Shown: positions 6,273 to 35,388 of the stretch, piece after piece | How the letters are laid out: each line of letters starts with the position of its first letter | Numbering within the stretch: position 1 is the stretch's first letter | From: Gammaproteobacteria bacterium | GTDB lineage: Bacteria > Pseudomonadota > Gammaproteobacteria > Steroidobacterales > Steroidobacteraceae | Assembly: GCA_027307325.1 (NCBI GenBank) | Contig: DAHUXE010000122.1 | Span: 1-47,779 of the forward strand | DNA: 47,779 nucleotides | Direction: 5' to 3' | Translations under genes and position numbers: made by a program | The notes under the pieces: generated by a model | What the model saw: only the letters and a program-made list of their open reading frames with translations | Database searches by the model: none | What the model was told of the DNA's origin: nothing

Positions 6273-6977
6273 TCAGCCGCCGGCACCCGAATCGCGGAAC
6301 TTGACGGCGGCGTGCGAGCCGTCGCAGAAGGGCTTGTGCTTCGAAGCGCCGCAGCGGCACAGCGTTACGCGGTTGCGCACCTCGTAGGCAAAGCCGTCGG
6401 CGGCGATGACCGGGATCCCGCCGCGCAGCCACAGTGGCCCGCTCACGCCCTCGGGCGGGTCCTCGATCACCCCGATCGACAGGGGGAGATGATGCTCGAT
6501 CGGCTTTCCGGTGGCCCGGTCCCAGGCGACCAGGCGCCCCGACGGGCAGTTGTTCACCTGCCGCACGAAGTTCGTGCGCACCTCGGTCTCATCGGTGCGC
6601 TCGACCTGGCTCCACACCTGCCCGTTCGGGTCGCAGAAGCGGGCAAAGGCACACAGCGACTCCGCGTCCGAGAGCGCGAGCACCGGCCCCTCGGTGAGCT
6701 GCGCCTGCTCGCGGTAGGGGCGGCGGTCGGCGGTCTCGGTGCCGTCGAAGCCGATCTTCTTGTGCGTGCCGTCGCAGAAGGGCTTGGTGCCCGAGTGGCC
6801 GCAACGGCAGAGCGCGTAGCTCTCCTGGCGCGGAAACGGCTGACTCTCCCGCCATTGCTGCGAGCCGCCTTCCTGGTCGGCGACGATCGTTTGCCGCGCC
6901 AGAGGCAGCGCGCCACTTACCAGATAGGGCCCGTTCCTCGTGACGACCACCCGTGGCTCGCCGCTCGACTTCGTCAT
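6273..6977 (-). CDS. Tandem CDGSH iron-sulfur domain protein
   Basis: The 234-residue protein carries two CDGSH-type [2Fe-2S] motifs: CRCGHSGTKPFCDGTH (ligands C57, C59, C68, H72) and CRCGASKHKPFCDGSH (C207, C209, C218, H222). Between them is a divergent Fe-S-like region with CAFARFCD and NNCPSGRLVAWD, as in bacterial proteins that join a middle mono-cluster domain to CDGSH motifs. There is no signal peptide or membrane helix, so it is cytoplasmic. It is the first gene of the operon that goes on to acyl-CoA ligase, D-amino acid dehydrogenase and deacylase, so an electron-transfer or redox-sensing role in that pathway is plausible but not shown. ATG 6977 precedes family homology; upstream codons are unlike protein. 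About 160 bases separate it from the divergent ppk2. Confidence 0.87.
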   Translation of the reverse strand: MTKSSGEPRVVVTRNGPYLVSGALPLARQTIVADQEGGSQQWRESQPFPRQESYALCRCGHSGTKPFCDGTHKKIGFDGTETADRRPYREQAQLTEGPVLALSDAESLCAFARFCDPNGQVWSQVERTDETEVRTNFVRQVNNCPSGRLVAWDRATGKPIEHHLPLSIGVIEDPPEGVSGPLWLRGGIPVIAADGFAYEVRNRVTLCRCGASKHKPFCDGSHAAVKFRDSGAGG

Positions 6978-7137
6978 GGATGACTCCCCGACCCCGCTGT
7001 TATTGGAACGCCCGCGGTGCGGAGTGCCTAGACTGCACCCAAGCGGGGGCACGCCACAAGAGTCTGGCCCGCACGCGGGACCTACGCGAATAATGCGCCC
7101 GGCACGCCAATCCCGGCGGCCTTGAGCGGAGCAGAAC

Positions 7138-7926
7138 ATGGCCAAAGAGACGCATGCGGCACCGCCCGTAATCGGCAGGCATCGTTACGCGCGCGAGCTG
7201 CGGGCGCTGCAGATCGAGCTGGTGAAGCTACACCGCCACGTCATCGCCCGCGGGCACAAGGTGTTGGTGATCCTCGAGGGACGCGACGCGGCGGGCAAGG
7301 ACGGCACCGTCAAGCGCATCGCCGAGCACCTGAGCCCGCGCGAACTGCGGGTGGTGGCCCCCGGCAAGCCGAGCGACCGGGAAGAGACCGAGTGGTACTT
7401 CCAGCGCTTCACCGTGCACCTGCCGGCGGCCCAGGAGATCGTGCTGTTCAACCGCAGCTGGTACAACCGCGCCGGCGTCGAATTCGTCATGAAGTACTGT
7501 ACGCGCTCCGAGCACGAGGCCTTCCTCGAGGCAGCTCCGGGGTTCGAGCGGATGCTGGTACGCTCCGGTATTCACCTGCTCAAGTACTATCTCGACATCA
7601 GCCGCGCCGAGCAGGCACGGCGGCTGCGCGAGCGGCGCCGCGACCCGCTCAAGCAGTGGAAGCTGAGTCCCGTGGACGAGGCGGCGCAACAGCACTGGCG
7701 CGACTACAGCCGCGCGCGCGACCAGATGCTGCTGCGCACGCATACGCGCGATGCGCCCTGGATGGTGGTGCGCGCAGACGACAAGCACCAGGCGCGCCTC
7801 AATGTCATTCGCGACATACTCGCGCGCGTTCCCGCTCCCGATGTCGCGCGCCGCCTGGCGCGGCCCGATGCACGCGTGGTGCGCGAGTTCAGCGCGCCGC
7901 TGCTCGAGGGGTGGGTCGCACGCTGA
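7138..7926 (+). CDS. ppk2: Polyphosphate kinase 2
   Basis: The 262-residue single-domain protein matches the PPK2 family, which uses polyphosphate to phosphorylate nucleotides or the reverse. It has Walker A EGRDAAGKDG at residues 47-56, the lid region after VVAPGKPSDREETEWYFQRF, and the Walker B-like NRSWYNRAGVE at 105-115. The C-terminal half (HLLKYYLDISRAEQARRLRERRRDPLKQWKLSPVD) is also diagnostic. Length and single-domain form fit class I (polyP-driven NDP kinase) but class cannot be fixed by eye. The start ATG is preceded by GGAGCAGAAC, an acceptable ribosome site. The 160-base divergent region upstream shows a weak -10-like GAATAAT at about 7088-7094 and no convincing -35. Confidence 0.93.
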   Translation: MAKETHAAPPVIGRHRYARELRALQIELVKLHRHVIARGHKVLVILEGRDAAGKDGTVKRIAEHLSPRELRVVAPGKPSDREETEWYFQRFTVHLPAAQEIVLFNRSWYNRAGVEFVMKYCTRSEHEAFLEAAPGFERMLVRSGIHLLKYYLDISRAEQARRLRERRRDPLKQWKLSPVDEAAQQHWRDYSRARDQMLLRTHTRDAPWMVVRADDKHQARLNVIRDILARVPAPDVARRLARPDARVVREFSAPLLEGWVAR

Positions 7927-8006
7927 GCCGCGCTGCGCGCGCGGCAGAAGGTGTTGGCCGCGCCGCGAGCTGCTGCAAAAGCGCCCGCGGCGGCCGCACC
8001 TTTGGT

Positions 8007-8012
8007 TACAAT
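8007..8012 (+). promoter_or_regulatory. Candidate -10 element (TACAAT) before the MFS gene
   Basis: TTGGTTACAATG at 8002-8013 contains a good sigma-70 -10 hexamer, TACAAT. No -35 hexamer is seen 16-18 bases upstream, where the sequence is all G and C. If used, transcription would begin about 8019, only about five bases before the ATG at 8024. That would mean either a near-leaderless transcript or use of the in-frame ATG at 8072. Confidence 0.3.
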
Positions 8013-8023
8013 GTCGCAGCCGC

Positions 8024-9301
8024 ATGCAACCGCCACGCGCCGCCACGCCTCGCTTCGCCGTCCAGGCGCTCATGTACGTCGGCATGGCATTCGTCATGCT
8101 CGGCAACTACTACGGTTACGACTCCATCGCCCCGGTCGCCGAGCAGCTGTCGCGGCAGCTGCACTTCAGCGACACGCAGATCGGCGCCCTGAACGCCATC
8201 TACAGTCTTCCCAACATCTTCCTGGTGGCGGTAGGCGGCGTGCTGGTGGACCGCTTCAGCGCGCGGCGACTGGCGGTCTTCACCACCGCGCTGTGCCTGG
8301 CGGGCGCGGTGGTGACCGCGCTCGGCGCGCAGTTCCCGGTGATGGCCACCGGGCGGCTGCTGTTCGGGGTCGGCTCGGAAACGCTGGCGGTCGTCACTAC
8401 CGTGGCGCTCGCCCAATGGTTCGCGGGTCGCTACTTCGCGCTGCTGTTCGCGCTCAACCTGTCCCTCGCACGCCTCGGCTCCTACCTCGCGGACCGCTCG
8501 CCCTCCTTCGCCGGCTCCCTGTACGCGCACGGCTGGCAGCCGCCGTTGTGGCTCGCGGTCGGCTTCGCGCTCGCCTCGTTCGCCGGGGCGCTCCTCTATT
8601 ACTGGCTGGACCGGCGCGAGGCGCCGCGCGGAACGCTGGCGCTGCCGCCGCCCGCCGAGCGCCTCGATTGGCGCCATCTGCTCTCCTTCCGCAGGGAATA
8701 CTGGCTGCTGGTAGCGGTCTGCGTAACTTTCTATTCGGTCATCTTCCCGTTCCGCAGCACCTTCGCCATCAAGTATCTGCAGGAGGCGCAGGGTCTGAGC
8801 CTGAACGCCGCGAGCACGCTCAACAGCTACGTGTTCCTCGGTGCCGTGTTCGCCACGCCGGTATTCGGCCTGCTGCTGGACCGGACCGGGCGCAATACGC
8901 TGCTGCTCGCGGCCGGCGCGGCGCTGCTGCCGCTCAGTTTCCTGGTGCTGGCGGTGCTGCCGGGCAGCGCCGGGGTGTCGACCGCGCTTCTCGGCGTGAG
9001 CTTCTCGTTCCTGCCCGCGGTGCTCTGGCCGACGGTGGTGCGCTACACGGCGCCCGAGCACCTCGGCACCGCCTATGGTGTGATGACGGCATTGCAGAAC
9101 GCCGGCCTGTTCGGCGCCAACGTCGTGGCCGGCTTTCTCAACGATGCGAGCGGGGCAAGCGCCACCAACCCCGGCGGCTATGCCGCGATGCTGTGGTTCT
9201 TCGGCCTCCTCAGCCTCGCGGCGCTCCTGTGCACGCTGGTGCTGTGGCTGCTCGATCACGTCGGTGCGCCGCGCTCCGCAGCGGCGGCCGATGGCCGCTG
9301 A
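8024..9301 (+). CDS. Major facilitator superfamily transporter
   Basis: The 425-residue protein has about twelve hydrophobic helices in two groups of six, with a polar central loop around residues 190-225 (YWLDRREAPRGTLALPPPAERLDWRHLL). The helix 2-3 loop motif VDRFSARRLAV and its second-half counterpart LLDRTGRNTLLL are the MFS motif-A signatures. The N-terminus (GNYYGYDSIAPVAEQLSRQLHFSDTQIGALNAIYSLPN) is typical of MFS proteins annotated as metabolite or nitrate/oxalate-like carriers; I cannot name the substrate. The start is uncertain: ATG 8024 is given, ATG 8072 lies directly before the first helix. A possible -10 at 8007-8012 sits between ppk2 and this gene, so it may have its own promoter. 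Confidence 0.88.
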   Translation: MQPPRAATPRFAVQALMYVGMAFVMLGNYYGYDSIAPVAEQLSRQLHFSDTQIGALNAIYSLPNIFLVAVGGVLVDRFSARRLAVFTTALCLAGAVVTALGAQFPVMATGRLLFGVGSETLAVVTTVALAQWFAGRYFALLFALNLSLARLGSYLADRSPSFAGSLYAHGWQPPLWLAVGFALASFAGALLYYWLDRREAPRGTLALPPPAERLDWRHLLSFRREYWLLVAVCVTFYSVIFPFRSTFAIKYLQEAQGLSLNAASTLNSYVFLGAVFATPVFGLLLDRTGRNTLLLAAGAALLPLSFLVLAVLPGSAGVSTALLGVSFSFLPAVLWPTVVRYTAPEHLGTAYGVMTALQNAGLFGANVVAGFLNDASGASATNPGGYAAMLWFFGLLSLAALLCTLVLWLLDHVGAPRSAAAADGR

Positions 9302-9317
9302 GTCACGGCGCTGAGCC

Positions 9318-10565
9318 ATGGGCTGGCTGACCCCGCTGTTCGTGCTCGCGGTGCTCGCCGGTGCCGCGATCGAGCTGTGGCTCGGGGAGCGCCAGAGGGC
9401 CGCCGTCGTCCGCCATCGCGGCGTCGTGCCGGAGCCGTTTGCCGCGAGCGTCTCCGCGGACCAGCACGCCAGGTCGGCCGACTACACCATCGCGAAGCTG
9501 CGCCTCGGCCGCATCGGGCTGGGCGTGGACGCCGCGCTGGTGCTCGGCCTCACCGTCGGCGGCGGCCTCGCCGCGCTCGATGCCCTGTGGAGCCGTGCGC
9601 ACCTCGCGGAGCCCTGGCTGGGACTTGCAGTCATCGCCTCCGTCGCGCTCATGGCCCGGCTCGTGAGTCTGCCGCTCGCCCTGTGGCGCACCTTCGGACT
9701 CGAGGCGCGCTTCGGCTTCAACCGCACGACGGCCGCGCTCTACCTCGCCGACCTCGCCAGGAGCCTCGCGCTCACGGTGGTGCTCGGCGGGCCACTGCTC
9801 TTCGCGACGCTCCTCTTGATGGCGCGCGCGGGCCGCTGGTGGTGGCTCGCGGCGTGGTTCATGTGGATCGCGGTCATGCTGGGTGTGGCCTGGGCGTGGC
9901 CGGCGTTCATCGCCCCGCTATTCAATCGTTTCTCGCCGCTCGCCGACGAGGCGCTGCGGCAGCGTATCGAGGCGCTGCTCGAGCGCTGCGGCTTCGCCTC
10001 CAGGGGCGTGTTCGTCGTCGACAGCTCGCGCCGCTCGAGCCACGGCAACGCCTACTTCACCGGCATCGGCCGGCACAAACGCATCGTGTTCTTCGACACG
10101 CTGCTCGGGACCCTGGGGCCCGGAGAGCTCGAGGCCGTGCTGGCTCACGAGCTCGGCCACTTCCGCCTGAAGCACGTGCGCCAGCGGCTGCTGATCTCGG
10201 TCGCGGCCGCCTTCGCCGGACTCGCCCTGCTCGGCTGGCTGGCCACACAAGACGCGTTTTACCGCGCGCTCGGCGTGCCGACACCCTCGCCACATGCGGC
10301 GCTCGTGCTCTTCGTGCTGGCGGTGCCGGCGTTCACGTTCTTCGTCACGCCCCTCGCCTCGCTCTGGTCGCGCCGGCATGAGTTCGAGGCGGACGCATTC
10401 GCCACCCGCCATGCGAGCGCCACCGAGCTCGCCACGGCGCTCGTGAAGCTCCATCGCGACAATGCCAGCACGCTCACCCCGGATCCCGTGTACGTGGCCT
10501 TCTACTACTCGCATCCACCGCCGCTGGTTCGCATCACCCGGTTGCGGGAGCAGTCGCAAGCGTAG
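9318..10565 (+). CDS. M48-family (Ste24/CAAX-type) membrane zinc metalloprotease
   Basis: The 415-residue protein has an N-terminal membrane helix, several further helices up to about residue 200, and the zinc motif HELGH at residues 277-281, followed by a membrane hairpin. The third zinc ligand lies in RRHEFEADAFA. The N-terminal half (SADYTIAKLRLGRI, FGLEARFGFNRTT) marks the Ste24 (CAAX prenyl protease 1-like) branch rather than HtpX. Bacterial members are inner-membrane proteases presumed to act in membrane-protein quality control; the true substrate is unknown. The C-terminal SHPPPLVRITRL motif is family-typical. It begins 16 bases after the MFS stop, so the two may be co-transcribed. Confidence 0.92.
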   Translation: MGWLTPLFVLAVLAGAAIELWLGERQRAAVVRHRGVVPEPFAASVSADQHARSADYTIAKLRLGRIGLGVDAALVLGLTVGGGLAALDALWSRAHLAEPWLGLAVIASVALMARLVSLPLALWRTFGLEARFGFNRTTAALYLADLARSLALTVVLGGPLLFATLLLMARAGRWWWLAAWFMWIAVMLGVAWAWPAFIAPLFNRFSPLADEALRQRIEALLERCGFASRGVFVVDSSRRSSHGNAYFTGIGRHKRIVFFDTLLGTLGPGELEAVLAHELGHFRLKHVRQRLLISVAAAFAGLALLGWLATQDAFYRALGVPTPSPHAALVLFVLAVPAFTFFVTPLASLWSRRHEFEADAFATRHASATELATALVKLHRDNASTLTPDPVYVAFYYSHPPPLVRITRLREQSQA

Positions 10566-10605
10566 TAGCCGCTGGACAGAGCCTCAACGTCCACGACGCC
10601 TCGCG

Positions 10606-13790
<3,185 letters not shown>

Positions 13791-29281: not shown

Positions 29282-29401
29282 CACATCGGCGACAACGACT
29301 GCTGGATCGCCGGCACGGCGCTATCGAAGGGCCTGGCACTCGTGACCCGCAACGTCAAGCACTTCGAGCGCGTGCCGGCGGTCGTGTGTGCGGCCTACTG
29401 A
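29282..29401 (+). pseudogene. Remnant of a VapC-type PIN-domain toxin (C-terminal 39 codons)
   Basis: Just after the tRNA the plus strand reads HIGDNDCWIAGTALSKGLAL then VTRNVKHFERVPAVVCAAY and a stop. This matches the C-terminal quarter of VapC ribonuclease toxins, which includes the conserved ND.WIA and LVT.N..HF.RVPG signatures. An in-frame TAG at 29267-29269 and lack of any start show that the front of the gene is lost, as is any vapB antitoxin. Its last bases overlap the 3' end of the SagB-like gene on the other strand. It is a scar of past insertion next to the tRNA. Confidence 0.75.
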
Positions 29402-30456
29402 CGCAAGCCGACTCCTGCAACATAAAGAACCGACTCAGAAATTCCATCCAGCCCCAAGTCTCTCTCAATCAGTGAGTCCTTCAGCGCGGCCGTGCTGAAG
29501 GGAGCCAGTCCCAGCCTGGTTGCCGTGAGGCAAAAGGTCTGACAGAGGTGTCCTGCCTCCAGCAGAACAACTCGATACGCTCGGGCCCGACCGTACTTCC
29601 ACATGGTCCTGGCGAAGACCGCCGTCATGATAAAGAGCGCTGCCGCGCGGCCGCAGTATGGCTGATCGACGCAGTACGCGCGCGCCAGGCGCGCACTCGC
29701 TCTGGCAGGGAGTCTTGCCAAACGGTGGCTGTTCGCTTCGTAGTGATACGTTCCCGTTTCGAGCCCGTCTACTCTGAGCGCCATCAGATAGACCTCGCCC
29801 GGGTGCCTGGCACCGCCTGAAGGGCTCGTCTTGTACGGAAGCTTTCCAAACGCATTGGTCCGGAAATATCCCTGGACCCCCCACGTCGTTTGCAGCAGCT
29901 GTGAGACGCTCTCCAGAGAGATCTTTCCTCTCGCGAAATCCCTGTGCGTGCGTCTGGCGTGCAGCGTCTTGAAGAAGGTGTCTCCGACCATCCGATGCGA
30001 GGGCAACGGGACTACATCGGCGGCTCGAACTTCTTTGAACTGAGGCGGCGCCGGAGTGGCCGGAAGTAACTTTAGTCTCCTCTCGATGGGCCAGTCCGGA
30101 CGAACGTACGGGGTGTCCTTAGTCATGAAGTGAAAGGCGCCTTCCGGAAGCCACGGCCGCCATGACGACTTGACCTGCTCGTCCTGCTCCCATGCGGCCG
30201 AGCCGTATTCGAGCAGCAGCTCAGCATCGATCAGCTGCAGTATGGCCCTTGCGACACTCGCTTGAGAGTAAGAGCGGAACTCGACGAGCGCATCCTGGAT
30301 CGTCCGTGGGGCAAAAAAGAAACGAATTACGTCCAAGGTCGCGGAATTCGCCGAGAACTCCCTTCTGGCGAGGTAATTCGCGATCCGCAGCTCTCCATCC
30401 TGCCAGTACGCGATCTGGCAGGATGCGCTCCTCAACCTAAGGGGTTTTCGCTCCAC
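29395..30456 (-). CDS. SagB-type nitroreductase-fold dehydrogenase with RRE-like N-terminal part
   Basis: The 353-residue protein has a C-terminal FMN nitroreductase domain (about 160-350) of the SagB/ThcOx group: RRTHRDFARGKISLESVSQLL, TSPSGGARHPGEVYLMAL, GTYHYEANSHRL, MTAVFARTMWKYGRARAYR, and LEAGHLCQTFCLTATRLGLAP. Known relatives oxidise azolines to azoles in peptide natural products. Residues about 1-115 look like a small winged-helix unit (ATLDVIRFFFAPRTIQDALVEF, ARAILQLIDAELLLEYG), similar in pattern to RiPP recognition elements. It starts with GTG 21 bases after the small basic gene and ends the sigma-kinase unit. No YcaO cyclodehydratase is in the window. Base composition is less GC-rich than the housekeeping genes. 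Confidence 0.85.
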   Translation of the reverse strand: MERKPLRLRSASCQIAYWQDGELRIANYLARREFSANSATLDVIRFFFAPRTIQDALVEFRSYSQASVARAILQLIDAELLLEYGSAAWEQDEQVKSSWRPWLPEGAFHFMTKDTPYVRPDWPIERRLKLLPATPAPPQFKEVRAADVVPLPSHRMVGDTFFKTLHARRTHRDFARGKISLESVSQLLQTTWGVQGYFRTNAFGKLPYKTSPSGGARHPGEVYLMALRVDGLETGTYHYEANSHRLARLPARASARLARAYCVDQPYCGRAAALFIMTAVFARTMWKYGRARAYRVVLLEAGHLCQTFCLTATRLGLAPFSTAALKDSLIERDLGLDGISESVLYVAGVGLRQ

Positions 30457-30477
30457 CTCGCAGGTCTCGAACCAAGG

Positions 30478-30726
30478 TTACAAGTCATGCTCGAAAATCT
30501 CTATGTCCACCAAGCGTCGTGCCACTGCCTCCAGATCTGCCTTCAAGTCAATCGTTCTCTCCGTCTGTGCGCGCGCCAGCAACTCAGCAACCTCGCTTCG
30601 AGCCGTCGCTGTGAGCTCGCGGAGCTCTGCCAGTCTCCCGCGTTTGGGTGACCTCTTTCTCCTGGTGGGCTTCCTCGATGCCGTTCTGGCTTTGGTCTTC
30701 TTTGATGCCATGTTGTAGTTCCTCAT
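30478..30726 (-). CDS. Small, strongly basic protein of unknown function
   Basis: The 82-residue product begins MRNYNMASKKTKARTASRK; a second start at its internal ATG would give 77 residues. The first 30 residues are almost all Lys, Arg, Ser, Thr and Pro (KKTKARTASRKPTRRKRSPK), like histone-H1-type tails. The rest is a predicted amphipathic helix (AELRELTATARSEVAELLAR, then DLKADLEAVARRLVDIEIFE) ending in an acidic EHDL. It has no cysteine. Its ATG overlaps the kinase TGA (ATGA) and it is 21 bases before the SagB-like gene, so co-translation with both is likely; that supports it as a real gene. It may be a nucleic-acid-binding protein, a partner, or the substrate peptide of the kinase or SagB-like enzyme. 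I do not recognise a family. Confidence 0.7.
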   Translation of the reverse strand: MRNYNMASKKTKARTASRKPTRRKRSPKRGRLAELRELTATARSEVAELLARAQTERTIDLKADLEAVARRLVDIEIFEHDL

Positions 30727-33470
30727 TGATCAAATGCAAAGGACAGAGACGATGATTCTTCAAGTCTCAAGTGCTGATCCCTCCCGGCAGACTGGCTCGG
30801 GCCGATCAACCTCATGCGAGTCAGCAAAGCCCGGAACCTCGGGTCGCCGTGCAGATTTCGAAGCAAGGGGTCCGTCTTGATGCCAGGCATTCCGGGGTGG
30901 TGCTGTCGATACGCGACATCAAGCCACAGGAAGGCATCATCGCTTTCTCCCCGATATGCGTGGACCTTGGCAATGTCGTAGGCACGGCTCGAAGCGAATT
31001 TCTCCGTCAACAAGTTCAACGCGGCATCCGACTCAGCGCGCCTTCCCATCGCCGAGTAGACGATCGCGAGGCCGCCGAGTCTGGAAGCTTCCTCGGGTTC
31101 CTTCTGTATCGCTCCGAGCGCTGCGGCAAATTGACCAAGATACAGGCGAGTGATGCCAACGGAGGTGCTGACTCCGCCGAACTCCGGATGGAGCTGCAGC
31201 AGCCGCAAACGGGCCTGCAAACATTGCTGAAGTCGGTCAGCCGCGCACAAGGCGATGCCGAGAGAGTCCAGGGTGTTCGCGTCAAGCGGATTTCGCTCTA
31301 TGTCCTGTTGGTACAACTCTACGGCCGTGTTTATCTCCCCGAACACGAGTGCGATGTCACCGAGAGCACTTAGCAAGAAGCCGAATCGCGGGTCGAGTTG
31401 CCGCATGCGTTCCGTGTCCGCCCGCGCGGCGGCCCAATTCCAGGTGACGTTCATCTCGAATCCGCCTCGCGTGTAATACGCCCAGACGAGATTTGGGTCG
31501 AGCCGCACTGCACGGTCCAGCGCCTCGAGAAGCTGCCTGTTCTGTTCCTCCGTGGGAGGCCCTTTAAGGATTTCCTCGCTCAGGTACGCGCTTGCGAGGC
31601 GTGCCCATGGCAGGCCGTAGTTGGGGTCTATGACGATTGCCTGCTGGTAGAGCTCTGCGGCTCTTTCGACATCGCGCAGGGTCCTGCGCGCCTTGAAGTA
31701 ATTCCCCTCGAGAACAAGGTTGTACGCCCGGACATCGGGCTGCTGGTCTCCTGCCCGGTAACCGCTGCGCAAAGCGACGCGCAGGGCCTGGGAAACCTGC
31801 TCGGCAATCTCGTCCTGCACTTTGAAGATTTCGACGACCGCACGATCATAGGTGTGGGACCATAGGGATACTCCATCTGAAGCGCGAATGAGCTGCGCGG
31901 TGATACGCAGTTCCTGGCGGTCCTTGCGAATACTGCCCTCCAGAACGTGCGTCGCTGCCAGCTGGCGCGCGATCGCGCGCACGTCCTCGTTCTTACCCTT
32001 GAACTGGAACGAGGAAGACCGCGCGATGACCTTCAGGTCCGTGCTGTGCACAAGGTGGTCTATCAGCTCCTCTGAGAGCCCGTCCGAGAAGTACTCCTGC
32101 TCCTTATCGCCGCTGATATTCACAAACGGCAGCACCGCGATCGACTTTTCCGGGACGGCGGCTGCTGCCACAGCGACGGAATTCGACCCGATCGCCTGAG
32201 TCGCCGTTTCCCGGTACACGACATAGCCGAACGCGGTAAGGACGGCGGCAGCTGCCGCGGTGCTGACCGCAACCACGATCCTGTTGCGCCGGACGAACTT
32301 CCGTAATCGATAGCGGACTCGCGCCGGCCGCGCCGCGACGGGCCTGGCCGAGAGGTAGCTTCGCAAGTCCTTCGCGAGGTCGGTTGCGCTCGGATAGCGC
32401 TCGGCCGGCGCCTTGGCGAGTGCCTTGACCACGATTGCGTCCAGATCGCCGCGCAATTGCCGCGCCAAACCCTCTTGCGTAGTCGCCCGCAGCGTTGCGG
32501 CTTGCGGCTCAGCCCGCATGCTGGGATTTTCCACATCGATGCTGGCGATCGCCTGTTGGAGCACACCGATCGACCCGGCGCTCTTCAGCTGATACGGGCG
32601 GACCCCGGTGAGTAACTCGTAGATGACGACGCCGAAGGAATAGATGTCGCACCGAGCATCGAGCCGCTCACCACGCAGCAGTTCGGGACTCGCGTAGTCC
32701 GGAGTCAGTGCCCGGCCGTAGACGCTCGTGAGCTGCGGCTGATCCGCCTCTTCCTCCAGGAGCTTCGCGACGCCAAAATCGAGGAGCCGCACCTGGCCGG
32801 CCTCGGTCACCAGAATGTTGGAGGGCTTCAGGTCGCGGTGTACGACGTGTTTGTCGTGTGCATACTGCATCGCTTCAAGCACCTGCAGGCACAACTCCAG
32901 GCGTGCCGCGATCGGCAGACGATGCGCATCGCACCAGCCGGTCAGGGTCTCTCCCTCCACGTACTCCATGGCGAGATACGGCTGCCCGGCGGGATCGATG
33001 CCCGCGTCATAGAGACGGGCAATATGCGGATGCTCGAGGCTCGCCAGGATGTCGCGCTCGCGGGCGAAACGCTGTTCGAGCTCGCCGCGCATCAGTACGA
33101 GTGTCGGTATCTTCAAGGCCACCATGCGCTTCAAGGCGCCGTCGGCTCGCCTCGCGAGCCACACCTCGGCCATGCCGCCCGCTCCCAGGGGCCGAATCAA
33201 CTCGTAGGGTCCCACGCGCGCGCCGGCCTGCAGGCGGCTCGTGGACTCGCGGCTTCCCCGGTGGACGAGGAGCTTCGGCATCGTCCCGAGTGGTCTGGAG
33301 ACTGCGGCCTGAGACTCTCCCGGGAGCAACGCTTCCCATAGCGCCGCTCCAATATCCGAGTATTCGGCTGGCAGCCTCCCGAGCCAGGCGCGCCGAGCGT
33401 TGGCATCGAGTGGCAGCGCCTCGTCAAGCAGGCGGCTCATCTGCGCCATTTGAGAAACCGATAGCCCCAT
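30723..33470 (-). CDS. Membrane Ser/Thr protein kinase with TolB-like and TPR domains
   Basis: The 915-residue protein has an N-terminal helical part (1-80). A Hanks-type kinase domain (about 88-375) follows with glycine loop GAGGMAEV, catalytic K120, HRDLKPSN (211-218) and DFG (231-233). A membrane helix lies at about 398-418. A TolB/FlgO-like domain follows (KSIAVLPFVNISGDKEQEYFSDGLSEELI to SLWSHTYDR, about 444-545), then a C-terminal TPR array (to about 880). The extracytoplasmic TolB-TPR half would sense or bind something outside, and the kinase would signal inside. It follows the ECF sigma gene by 47 bases and overlaps the small basic gene. Such kinase-ECF sigma pairs are known in Acidobacteria and related soil bacteria. 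Confidence 0.92.
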   Translation of the reverse strand: MGLSVSQMAQMSRLLDEALPLDANARRAWLGRLPAEYSDIGAALWEALLPGESQAAVSRPLGTMPKLLVHRGSRESTSRLQAGARVGPYELIRPLGAGGMAEVWLARRADGALKRMVALKIPTLVLMRGELEQRFARERDILASLEHPHIARLYDAGIDPAGQPYLAMEYVEGETLTGWCDAHRLPIAARLELCLQVLEAMQYAHDKHVVHRDLKPSNILVTEAGQVRLLDFGVAKLLEEEADQPQLTSVYGRALTPDYASPELLRGERLDARCDIYSFGVVIYELLTGVRPYQLKSAGSIGVLQQAIASIDVENPSMRAEPQAATLRATTQEGLARQLRGDLDAIVVKALAKAPAERYPSATDLAKDLRSYLSARPVAARPARVRYRLRKFVRRNRIVVAVSTAAAAAVLTAFGYVVYRETATQAIGSNSVAVAAAAVPEKSIAVLPFVNISGDKEQEYFSDGLSEELIDHLVHSTDLKVIARSSSFQFKGKNEDVRAIARQLAATHVLEGSIRKDRQELRITAQLIRASDGVSLWSHTYDRAVVEIFKVQDEIAEQVSQALRVALRSGYRAGDQQPDVRAYNLVLEGNYFKARRTLRDVERAAELYQQAIVIDPNYGLPWARLASAYLSEEILKGPPTEEQNRQLLEALDRAVRLDPNLVWAYYTRGGFEMNVTWNWAAARADTERMRQLDPRFGFLLSALGDIALVFGEINTAVELYQQDIERNPLDANTLDSLGIALCAADRLQQCLQARLRLLQLHPEFGGVSTSVGITRLYLGQFAAALGAIQKEPEEASRLGGLAIVYSAMGRRAESDAALNLLTEKFASSRAYDIAKVHAYRGESDDAFLWLDVAYRQHHPGMPGIKTDPLLRNLHGDPRFRALLTRMRLIGPSQSAGRDQHLRLEESSSLSFAFDQ

Positions 33471-33517
33471 CGCCGTCTCAATCGAGTTAACGCCAGCACC
33501 CCGAGGCGGGCATCCTC

Positions 33518-34069
33518 TTATCGGACCGCCGCTGCGAGGATCATCCGCGCCTTCTCCCAGTCGCGTTGCACCGTGCGTTCGCTGACCTCCAGCGTTTCGG
33601 CAATCTCCTGCTCGCTGTAACCGCCGAAGTAGCGCATCTGCGCGACCTGGGCCAAACGAGAATCCGCTTTTTCCAGGACCTCCAGCGCCTCGTGGACTCT
33701 TAAGATCGTTTCCTCGTCTTCCGCGACGTTGGCGCCCAGGTCGGTCGAGAGGGTCAGGGCCTGCACCCCGCCGCCGCGCTTCTGCGCGAGGCGTTCGCGC
33801 ACGCTGTTGACGATGACCGAGCGCATCACTTGCGAAGCGTAGGCGAAGAACGCCCGTCGGTCCTCCGCGCGCAGCTCCCCGGCGCTCACGAACCGCAAGT
33901 ACGCTTCATGCACCAGACAGGTGGTATCCAGCAGGGTGTTGCGCCCACCGTCGCGTAGCCGCGACCGGGCGAGCCGATGGAGCTCGGAATACGCGAGCGC
34001 AAACAAACTATCGCGCGCGTCAGGCTCGCCCGCCTGGACTCGACCCAGTAGCTGGGTGAGCTCACTCAT
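33518..34069 (-). CDS. ECF-type RNA polymerase sigma factor (Sigma70_ECF family)
   Basis: The 183-residue protein matches the ECF group often found beside Ser/Thr kinases. Region 2 is seen in LVHEAYLRFVSAGELRAEDRRAFFAYASQVMR. Region 4 is the helix-turn-helix MRYFGGYSEQEIAETLEVSERTVQRDWEKARM. I chose ATG 34069 (MSELTQLLGRVQAG) because a strong ribosome site GAGGGGG lies about 4-5 bases before it; a 14-codon longer form is less likely. It has no anti-sigma factor next to it; control by phosphorylation from the adjacent kinase is the obvious hypothesis. It is the first gene of the unit ending with the SagB-like enzyme. Confidence 0.92.
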   Translation of the reverse strand: MSELTQLLGRVQAGEPDARDSLFALAYSELHRLARSRLRDGGRNTLLDTTCLVHEAYLRFVSAGELRAEDRRAFFAYASQVMRSVIVNSVRERLAQKRGGGVQALTLSTDLGANVAEDEETILRVHEALEVLEKADSRLAQVAQMRYFGGYSEQEIAETLEVSERTVQRDWEKARMILAAAVR

Positions 34070-34379: not shown

Positions 34380-34751
34380 ATGAACAGGTTCAACGTCATT
34401 CGTCATGTCCTGACCGCCGCGATCGTCGGCACGCTCGTCTCGGGGTTCGCCTTCCCTGCCGCCGCTGCCGACGACACGGGGGTGCGTAGCATCACCGTGA
34501 AATTCGGGGATCTGAATGTATCGAGCCCGGAGGGCGCCGCCGCACTCTACGCTCGGATTCGTTCGGCCGCGAAGTCGGTGTGCTCGCCCTGGGAGTCCAG
34601 CTCCTATCCGATCAACACCGGGTTCACAGCCTGCGTTCACAAGGCCATTGCGGATGCGGTCACCAAGGTCAACCGCATGGAGCTGTACACGGTGTACAAC
34701 CTGCACAACAAGCCGGCGCTGCCGACCGGGCTGCTGTCGCAGCAGCGGTGA
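34380..34751 (+). CDS. UrcA-family secreted protein
   Basis: The 123-residue protein has a clear signal peptide (VLTAAIVGTLVSGFAFPAAAAD) and then the UrcA pattern: ITVKFGDLNVSSPEGAAALYARIRSAAKSVCS followed by a second cysteine in FTACVHKAIADAV. The two cysteines (C68, C85) probably form a disulphide in the periplasm. The family is common in Caulobacterales, sphingomonads and Steroidobacter-like bacteria. Its function is unknown. The ribosome site GGAG is well spaced. It is followed at 82 bases by the LRAT-domain gene in the same direction, possibly one transcript. Confidence 0.87.
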   Translation: MNRFNVIRHVLTAAIVGTLVSGFAFPAAAADDTGVRSITVKFGDLNVSSPEGAAALYARIRSAAKSVCSPWESSSYPINTGFTACVHKAIADAVTKVNRMELYTVYNLHNKPALPTGLLSQQR

Positions 34752-34833
34752 GCGAGGGGCCTGCGCGGCGGCAGTTCGCCGCCGCGCAGCGCCCTCGCAG
34801 GAGAACCGCGCAATCTCAGTGTTGGGGGCACCG

Positions 34834-35388
34834 ATGGAAGACATTCCTTCGAGGGCTGGAGCGCTTCGTCTCGCAGCCGCGAGAACGGCTCTTGAGCCGG
34901 CTCTGGGAGCACATCTCGAAACCTCTCGCGTCGGCTATGAGCATCATGGCGTGTACGTTGGCAACGGGAAGGTCGTGCACTATGCCGGCTTCTGCCGCCG
35001 CTGGCGGCCAGACCCCGTCGAGGAAGTGACGCTCTTCGGTTTCTCTCTCGGTCATACGATCCGCATCCTCGAACATCCGAGTTGCACTTACTCGCCCCAG
35101 GAGATCGTGGATCGCGCCCGCTCGCGTCTAGGCGAACGGCGCTACCGGCTGCTGACAAACAATTGTGAACACTTCAGCAACTGGTGTGTCAGGGGACTGA
35201 GTCAAAGCCACCAGGCTCAGCGACCGGTCGCTCTGCTGCTTCGGCTGCTCCGGGAGGCGGCCGCACGGCTCTTGGGGATCAACGTTGGGGCGGGAATCCT
35301 GGTGGGGCCGGTCGTGCCGGCGAAGGCGCGGAAGGGCGATTCTCCTCAAGCGCGCGGCAGATGCCGTACGAAGTGTTCGAATGCCTGA
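34834..35388 (+). CDS. LRAT/NlpC-P60-like domain protein
   Basis: The 184-residue protein has the lecithin:retinol acyltransferase-like core. GAHLETSRVGYEHHGVYVGN gives the first histidine (H37/H38), VVHYAGF the second (H49), and NNCEHFSNWCVRG the nucleophile C111. A C-terminal hydrophobic stretch (PVALLLRLLREAAARLLGINVGAGILVGPVV) may anchor it to a membrane. Bacterial members are thiol hydrolases or acyltransferases of unknown substrate. The start is ATG 34834 preceded by GGGGG; GTG 34819 is an alternative. The reading frame upstream of this overlaps the UrcA gene out of frame and is not coding. The 3' end overlaps a gene on the other strand by 43 bases. Confidence 0.8.
   Translation: MEDIPSRAGALRLAAARTALEPALGAHLETSRVGYEHHGVYVGNGKVVHYAGFCRRWRPDPVEEVTLFGFSLGHTIRILEHPSCTYSPQEIVDRARSRLGERRYRLLTNNCEHFSNWCVRGLSQSHQAQRPVALLLRLLREAAARLLGINVGAGILVGPVVPAKARKGDSPQARGRCRTKCSNA

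Follow-up and report, generated by a model that had tools for sequence, protein, structure and literature searches.

Catalysis by McbC, the dehydrogenase of the McbBCD machinery, involves a Lys-Tyr pair. A further family of peptide-modification genes is covered by three NCBIfam models, TIGR04509, TIGR04510 and TIGR04511, which stand for a putative modified peptide, a peptide modification system cyclase and a peptide maturation dehydrogenase, respectively; a literature search covering few subscription journals found no paper naming these models, TIGR03903 or a 'peptide modification system cyclase'. On the side of signalling, one study places a large Ser/Thr kinase in the NHLP clusters of Burkholderia (PMC2887384), and two others describe ECF43 sigma factors (consensus QTTA; QATE, with T51, in EcfK) that are activated by an adjacent Hanks kinase, while the DxxD-type motif of other ECF factors contacts RNA polymerase (PMC13147305, PMC8999054).

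The window, by which we mean the whole stretch of 47,779 nucleotides that was analysed, belongs to the 2.98-Mb genome (97.88% complete) of a soil bacterium whose closest named relatives are gammaproteobacterial MAGs. Four genes, all on its minus strand, encode in succession an ECF sigma factor, a kinase, a small basic protein and a SagB-like enzyme, in the order given by an earlier note made from the letters, which had also correctly placed gaps of 47 bases between the sigma and kinase genes and of 21 bases between the small gene and the SagB-like gene.

33518..34069, minus strand: ECF sigma factor of the Sig-70_X6 type, 183 aa (TIGR02999 above cut-off; PF07638, E 1.1e-43)
30723..33470, minus strand: probable transmembrane Hanks kinase with a FlgO/TolB-like part and a TPR half (about residues 430-915) (PF00069, motifs)
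30709..30723, minus strand: ribosome-binding-site-like AGGA (30723-30720) and start codon at 30711 (read from the sequence)
30478..30711, minus strand: small basic protein, 77 aa (82 from 30726), putative modified-peptide precursor (position and profile similarity)
29395..30456, minus strand: SagB-like FMN dehydrogenase, 353 aa (TIGR03605 above cut-off)
34380..34751, plus strand: UrcA-family protein, divergent neighbour (TIGR04433, 65.5 bits, cut-off 25)

UrcA-like proteins, recognized by eye, are also present near the cassette in two gammaproteobacterial relatives (L014:3864-4286 and L012:9193-9615). An LRAT-domain protein (PF04970, E 6.9e-23), likewise divergent from the cassette, is read at 34516-35388 (+) of the window; read in a different frame, it overlaps the last part of the UrcA gene, and its true start is probably further in.

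Recurrence of the neighbourhood

A scan retaining one genome per species returned 28 loci, 24 of which (L011-L034) belong to Gammaproteobacteria, Verrucomicrobia or Acidobacteria. Four more (L035-L038; three archaea and one Gemmatimonadota), with a kinase-like neighbour only in L037 (56.8 bits), were set aside before the counts, so that with the window 25 loci were considered, two of them (L033 and L034) from a single assembly. A small open reading frame is found just upstream of the enzyme start, or overlapping it, on the same strand in 23 of the 23 assessable loci, in three phyla, by position; L029 and L034, in which a contig end cuts the SagB-like gene, were left out of this count. In 23 of the 25 loci there is, nearby, a match to the kinase of the window or to the TPR half of this kinase, one of them (L020) being counted at E 5e-4 only, from a truncated gene. 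The two others have no such gene in 7.9 kb upstream (L027, where the contig ends about 0.65 kb past the enzyme) and in 3.4 kb upstream (L033, where it ends just past the enzyme). Of 18 genomes counted, 12 have a kinase no further than two genes from the enzyme, as compared with 0.39 expected under a simple model of one gene per kb and independent genomes, in which five Verrucomicrobia and G355 are misses. On these figures, a neighbourhood due to chance was rejected. Four more loci of the Acidobacterial phylum (L084-L087) have a kinase and, by position, a small reading frame, the kinase of L084 being divergent, beyond the sigma gene and read in two ORFs. The company kept by kinase, small protein and SagB-like gene, first noticed in the window, is found in other genomes belonging to three phyla, so that the proposal of the earlier note withstands the neighbourhood comparison it had named as a possible refutation, and the unit to be explained is the trio made of the TPR sensor, the small protein and the SagB-like enzyme. 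In L030 and L031, an EamA-like gene located directly upstream of the kinase (L030:4103-5065, L031:4108-5070) is the only transporter that was noticed, by eye, beside the cassettes.

The cassette is sparsely distributed. Eight of 60 relatives, the window genome included, have a SagB-like match at E 1e-5; three are strong, namely the window genome (G000), G017, which is apparently the same record as L013 (identical coordinates), and G019, in which the contig ends inside the enzyme gene. The TPR half is present in two of the 60 (G000 and G017; E up to 1e-90), both carriers of the SagB-like gene. In wider draws at stricter cut-offs, centre genomes included, there are at least 5 carriers among 274 genomes of the class draw (the window genome and four weaker ones), at least 5 among 297 in the Acidobacterial phylum and at least 1 among 240 in the Verrucomicrobial phylum, these counts being lower bounds because no more than 7-8 candidates were scored in each genome.

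The sigma factor behaves differently. It scores 178.9 bits against TIGR02999 (cut-off 126.15) and starts at 34069 (MSELTQ...), as had been proposed; a longer ORF, opening with GTG and extending to 34111, would add 14 residues outside the sigma family match. Its region 2.2 motif is DTTC, at residues 48-51 (62-65 in the longer ORF), with Thr49 and Thr50. When this is compared by eye with QTTA and QATE, the threonine is present and the second acid is lost, the first Asp being kept, and a Hanks kinase gene adjoins the sigma gene as it does for the kinase-activated ECF43 factors. Since a threonine seems to occupy the ECF43 phosphorylation site, signalling from kinase to sigma factor is plausible in the window. 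A sigma-like gene occurs in the window and in 4 of 28 other cassette loci, many contigs being too short to tell, and none is found upstream of the cassette in the close relatives L012 and L014, with more than 4 kb available in each. We thus rejected the sigma factor as a constant part of the cassette, and the fixed four-part set of the earlier note gives way to one in which this gene is optional, an add-on of the window lineage and of a few others. L085 and L086 repeat the sigma-kinase-small-SagB order with another type of ECF factor (DTDD). The motif is QSAA in L025, where the threonine is missing, QPTA in L084, where it is present, and DTDD in L085, where the acids are kept.

Exchange of the sensor's output domain

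In the window, the N-terminal half of the sensor is a kinase domain (PF00069, E 1.5e-45) with the catalytic motifs in place (glycine loop, VALK, HRDLKPSN and DFG), and the protein has a single strongly hydrophobic segment, at residues 398-416. The part that had been called TolB-like is a region whose match to FlgO comes just under the cut-off of that family (20.9 vs 22.6 bits). Residues 451-915 are 58-92% identical, per 50 residues, to their counterparts in L012-L014, as against 18-58% for the earlier residues, and the window kinase half is of another subtype than the kinase of the closest relatives; between L013 and L014 the identity is 74-86% over L013 residues 101-350. As the close relatives carry another kinase domain ahead of the shared TPR half and lack a sigma factor, the kinase half and the sigma factor of the window look imported: a sigma-kinase unit may have replaced the ancestral kinase domain ahead of the TPR half. 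The window genome has a second pair of X6 sigma factor and kinase (L040:1059-2980), with genes overlapping by 4 bases and a kinase 43% identical to that of the window over residues 8-413.

The output half also differs between lineages. It is a Hanks kinase in Gammaproteobacteria and Acidobacteria, and the adjacent partner is a class III cyclase-TPR protein in five of the six Verrucomicrobial loci with a readable N-terminus, the sixth (L016) having a kinase; L017, L019, L020 and L022, where the sensor N-terminus is missing, are outside this count. The cyclase-TPR genes of L015, L018, L021, L023 and L024 are adjacent and convergent. Of the four scanned for PF00211, L018 and L023 reached it, and L015 and L024 did not at E 1e-5; the last two and L021 were called cyclases by eye from their likeness to L018 and L023. 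L015 and L018 also carry kinase-TPR genes a few genes further on. The TPR half of the window aligns with three of the Verrucomicrobial cyclase-TPR proteins (E 1e-32 to 3e-43) and weakly with the TIGR04510 protein of G224 (E 3e-4), and gives no alignment at E 1e-3 with L088 or L092. In G071 and G224, the TIGR04510 partner is found together with TIGR04511 and TIGR04509. In L092 (same order; 6384-12349), a winged-helix-TPR gene, another type of sensor output, stands on the opposite strand, upstream of an enzyme positive for TIGR04511 and of two similar 102-aa peptides.

The small protein and the SagB-like enzyme

For the small protein, the ATG at 30711 (MASKK...) is the most likely start, because an AGGA is located 8 bases upstream and no other column than this Met is invariant in an alignment of 24 proteins. 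An in-frame ATG further upstream, at 30726, accounts for the ATGA overlap and for the 82 residues that had been counted. In the window, the protein matches no NCBIfam model at E 1 and a single Pfam family (E 0.29). When the small proteins are taken together, the best NCBIfam match has E 0.005, in one member, and no Pfam family is matched by two members among the matches listed (25 of 33 families); the best of these is TssO, with one member at E 1.4e-4, and on these matches the placing of the small proteins in a known family was rejected. Profiles were run against 2,813 ORFs. One built from five gammaproteobacterial proteins places the same-position ORFs of two Verrucomicrobia, L017 and L015, on top of the rest (E 0.016 and 0.11); a Verrucomicrobial one retrieves second copies in L015 (E 1.3e-5) and L033 (7.5e-4), then L011, L026 and L025 (0.036-0.18); a joint profile retrieves L025 (E 1.9e-4). 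One-clade profiles thus rank the same-position ORFs of other clades near the top, often with weak E-values, while those of L084 and L086 match no profile at E up to 10 and those of L085 and L087 match weakly. Ahead of its main pair, L015 has this second small gene with a shortened second SagB-like gene after it (L015:889-1761), and L028 (7405-7931) has two small-protein genes in tandem ahead of one SagB-like gene.

In five gammaproteobacterial genomes, the small gene has a dN of 0.35-0.77 vs 0.08-0.15 for sagB (ratio of means 5.1), with overlapping dS ranges. Of 116 F, Y, W and H residues, 47 stand among the last 8 residues of 28 small proteins, a value reached by none of 5,000 shuffles; shuffles and dN values both ignore shared ancestry. 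The window protein ends in ...IEIFEHDL. Gammaproteobacteria and many Verrucomicrobia show constraint at this end, which is usually Leu, and no hypervariability; a Lys-rich stretch closes the proteins of L026 and L085. Cysteine is absent from the last 20 residues of 19 of the 28 proteins. The N-terminus of the window protein contains an insertion not found in four close relatives. The small protein thus evolves, and is composed, like a peptide precursor, which suggests that it may be a substrate.

The enzyme scores 125.6 bits against TIGR03605, the SagB family of peptide dehydrogenases (cut-off 78.4), and 185.7 bits against TIGR04511, the putative peptide maturation dehydrogenase, below the cut-off of 240. 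Its Lys287-Tyr288 aligns with Lys201-Tyr202 of McbC (counted from the alignment), Y288 being invariant and K287 at least 90% conserved over 23 aligned rows. The RRE-like front that had been proposed was not confirmed: the N-terminal 105 residues give weak Pfam hits, some of winged-helix type (the best, RP-C, in 4 of 22 members, E 0.0069), but nothing better than E 0.56 among PDB sequences. In the tree, the gammaproteobacterial loci group as a single clade next to Verrucomicrobia (96/90); the deep branching order is unsure, some of the outer rows being on long branches. In L033 (3466-4562) the SagB-like gene is in two frames, and a further fragment (L034) is found in the same assembly.

YcaO, whose absence had been remarked in the window, was not found in its genome either, with 0 matches to PF02624 and a positive control in E. 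coli; 18 of 20 genomes, this one among them, have no YcaO match. This makes ordinary azole chemistry unlikely, and azole (TOMM) biosynthesis was rejected for the window genome, assuming no YcaO in the missing 2%. In G479 (C1:2013071-2014952), a TIGR04509-like peptide with a weak score (20.4 bits, under the cut-off) comes within about 0.8 kb after a YcaO gene.

A candidate peptide-modification cassette

The best explanation of these data, to which we would give about an even chance, is a sensor-controlled peptide-modification cassette with the small protein as precursor, a SagB-like oxidation and a switch from kinase to sigma factor. The precursor would be a small protein rich in helices (as judged from its sequence pattern only), to which the FMN enzyme would bind before oxidizing at least one residue, often aromatic or His, of a short C-terminal part, and this would proceed without the azoline chemistry of YcaO. 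The TPR half of the membrane protein may sense an envelope or protein-interaction signal, relayed by the interchangeable N-terminal half, a Hanks kinase here and a class III cyclase in most readable Verrucomicrobial loci and in the TIGR04510 cassettes. In the window, the kinase would most likely phosphorylate the adjacent ECF sigma factor at Thr50 of DTTC (183-aa numbering), turning on the operon of which both are part.

A different view would make the small protein a subunit or chaperone for the SagB-like enzyme, or an adaptor to the sensor, the enzyme then acting on a small molecule or on another protein. Enzymes of the nitroreductase fold have many small-molecule substrates, a similar helical region recurs among the small proteins while no core motif is universal, and inspection of ORF starts by eye brought up no protease gene near the cassettes, all of which would fit; this account is nevertheless unlikely, as TIGR03605, a model of peptide dehydrogenases, is matched at E up to 1e-10 by all 23 members that were scanned, and both the aromatic and His enrichment of the C-terminus and the fast change of the protein are more precursor-like.

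Two further proposals turn on the kinase. It has its catalytic motifs, several Ser/Thr of the window small protein are flanked by basic residues, and kinase-TPR genes lie a few genes off in L015 and L018, so that phosphorylation of the Ser/Thr-rich basic N-terminus of the small protein might be the main regulatory step. We find this decidedly improbable: the cyclase-TPR partner adjacent in five of six readable Verrucomicrobial loci argues against it as a core function, despite those kinase-TPR genes, the small proteins of those loci are devoid of an N-terminus of this type, and the insertion of the window protein is not common to its four close relatives. It also seems quite improbable that sigma factor and kinase form an ordinary ECF43-like pair controlling genes elsewhere, with the peptide and enzyme genes loosely linked to it. 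The drop in identity from the TPR half to the kinase half and the second X6 pair of the genome speak for such a pair; yet the TPR half goes with the SagB-like gene in relatives and shares 71% identity with that of L012, which makes the sensor a part of the cassette whether or not its kinase domain was exchanged.

Returning to the peptide-modification cassette, we tentatively propose a new class of modified peptides, in which the aromatic or His tail of a new precursor family would undergo a YcaO-independent oxidation of SagB type, under the direct control of TPR membrane sensors whose output (kinase or cyclase) was exchanged between lineages, in soil Gammaproteobacteria, Verrucomicrobia and Acidobacteria. 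The trio recurring across three phyla hints at a little-studied route to modified peptides on demand. If true, this would add a precursor family and a SagB-type reaction dispensing with a cyclodehydratase, occurring chiefly in uncultured soil lineages and coupled to a sensor with an evolutionarily swapped signalling half, and it would make the little-studied models TIGR04509-04511 testable.

The joining of signalling to a peptide-modifying enzyme, which had caught the eye in the window, has precedents, TIGR04510 and TIGR03903 by name, and the Burkholderia NHLP kinase (PMC2887384). TIGR03903, a TOMM kinase/cyclase fusion, and the NHLP clusters share with the window a Ser/Thr kinase beside peptide-modification genes; however, they are TOMM clusters, and the window kinase scores 138.7 bits against TIGR03903, with a cut-off of 705.75. 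The ECF43 pairs EcfP-PknT and EcfK-PknS also have a sigma factor adjoining a transmembrane kinase (PMC13147305), and the window sigma factor, compared by eye, resembles theirs in the loss of the second acid of DxxD and the threonine there, but they are linked to T6SS or polymyxin resistance, whereas the window pair is linked to a SagB-like enzyme and its sigma factor is placed by its TIGR02999 match. TOMM/LAP systems (McbBCD) have in common with the window an FMN dehydrogenase of the SagB/McbC type with its Lys-Tyr pair, and differ in that no YcaO was found in the window genome and that most small-protein ends have no cysteine. Closest is the TIGR04509/TIGR04510/TIGR04511 cassette of G071 and G224, with a SagB-like enzyme of the same broad family, a signalling-TPR protein and a small peptide gene. 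TIGR04509 has no match in the window genome at E up to 0.01 and exceeds its cut-off in two genomes out of 24 (G071 and G224), and TIGR04510 is not among the matches listed for the window (25 of 29). The sensor output in the window is a kinase, the enzyme is short of the TIGR04511 cut-off, and the peptide gene lies inside the operon, whereas in G071 and G224 the peptide gene is between the two others, on the opposite strand. Not a member by the models of that cassette, the window cassette yet looks built like it.
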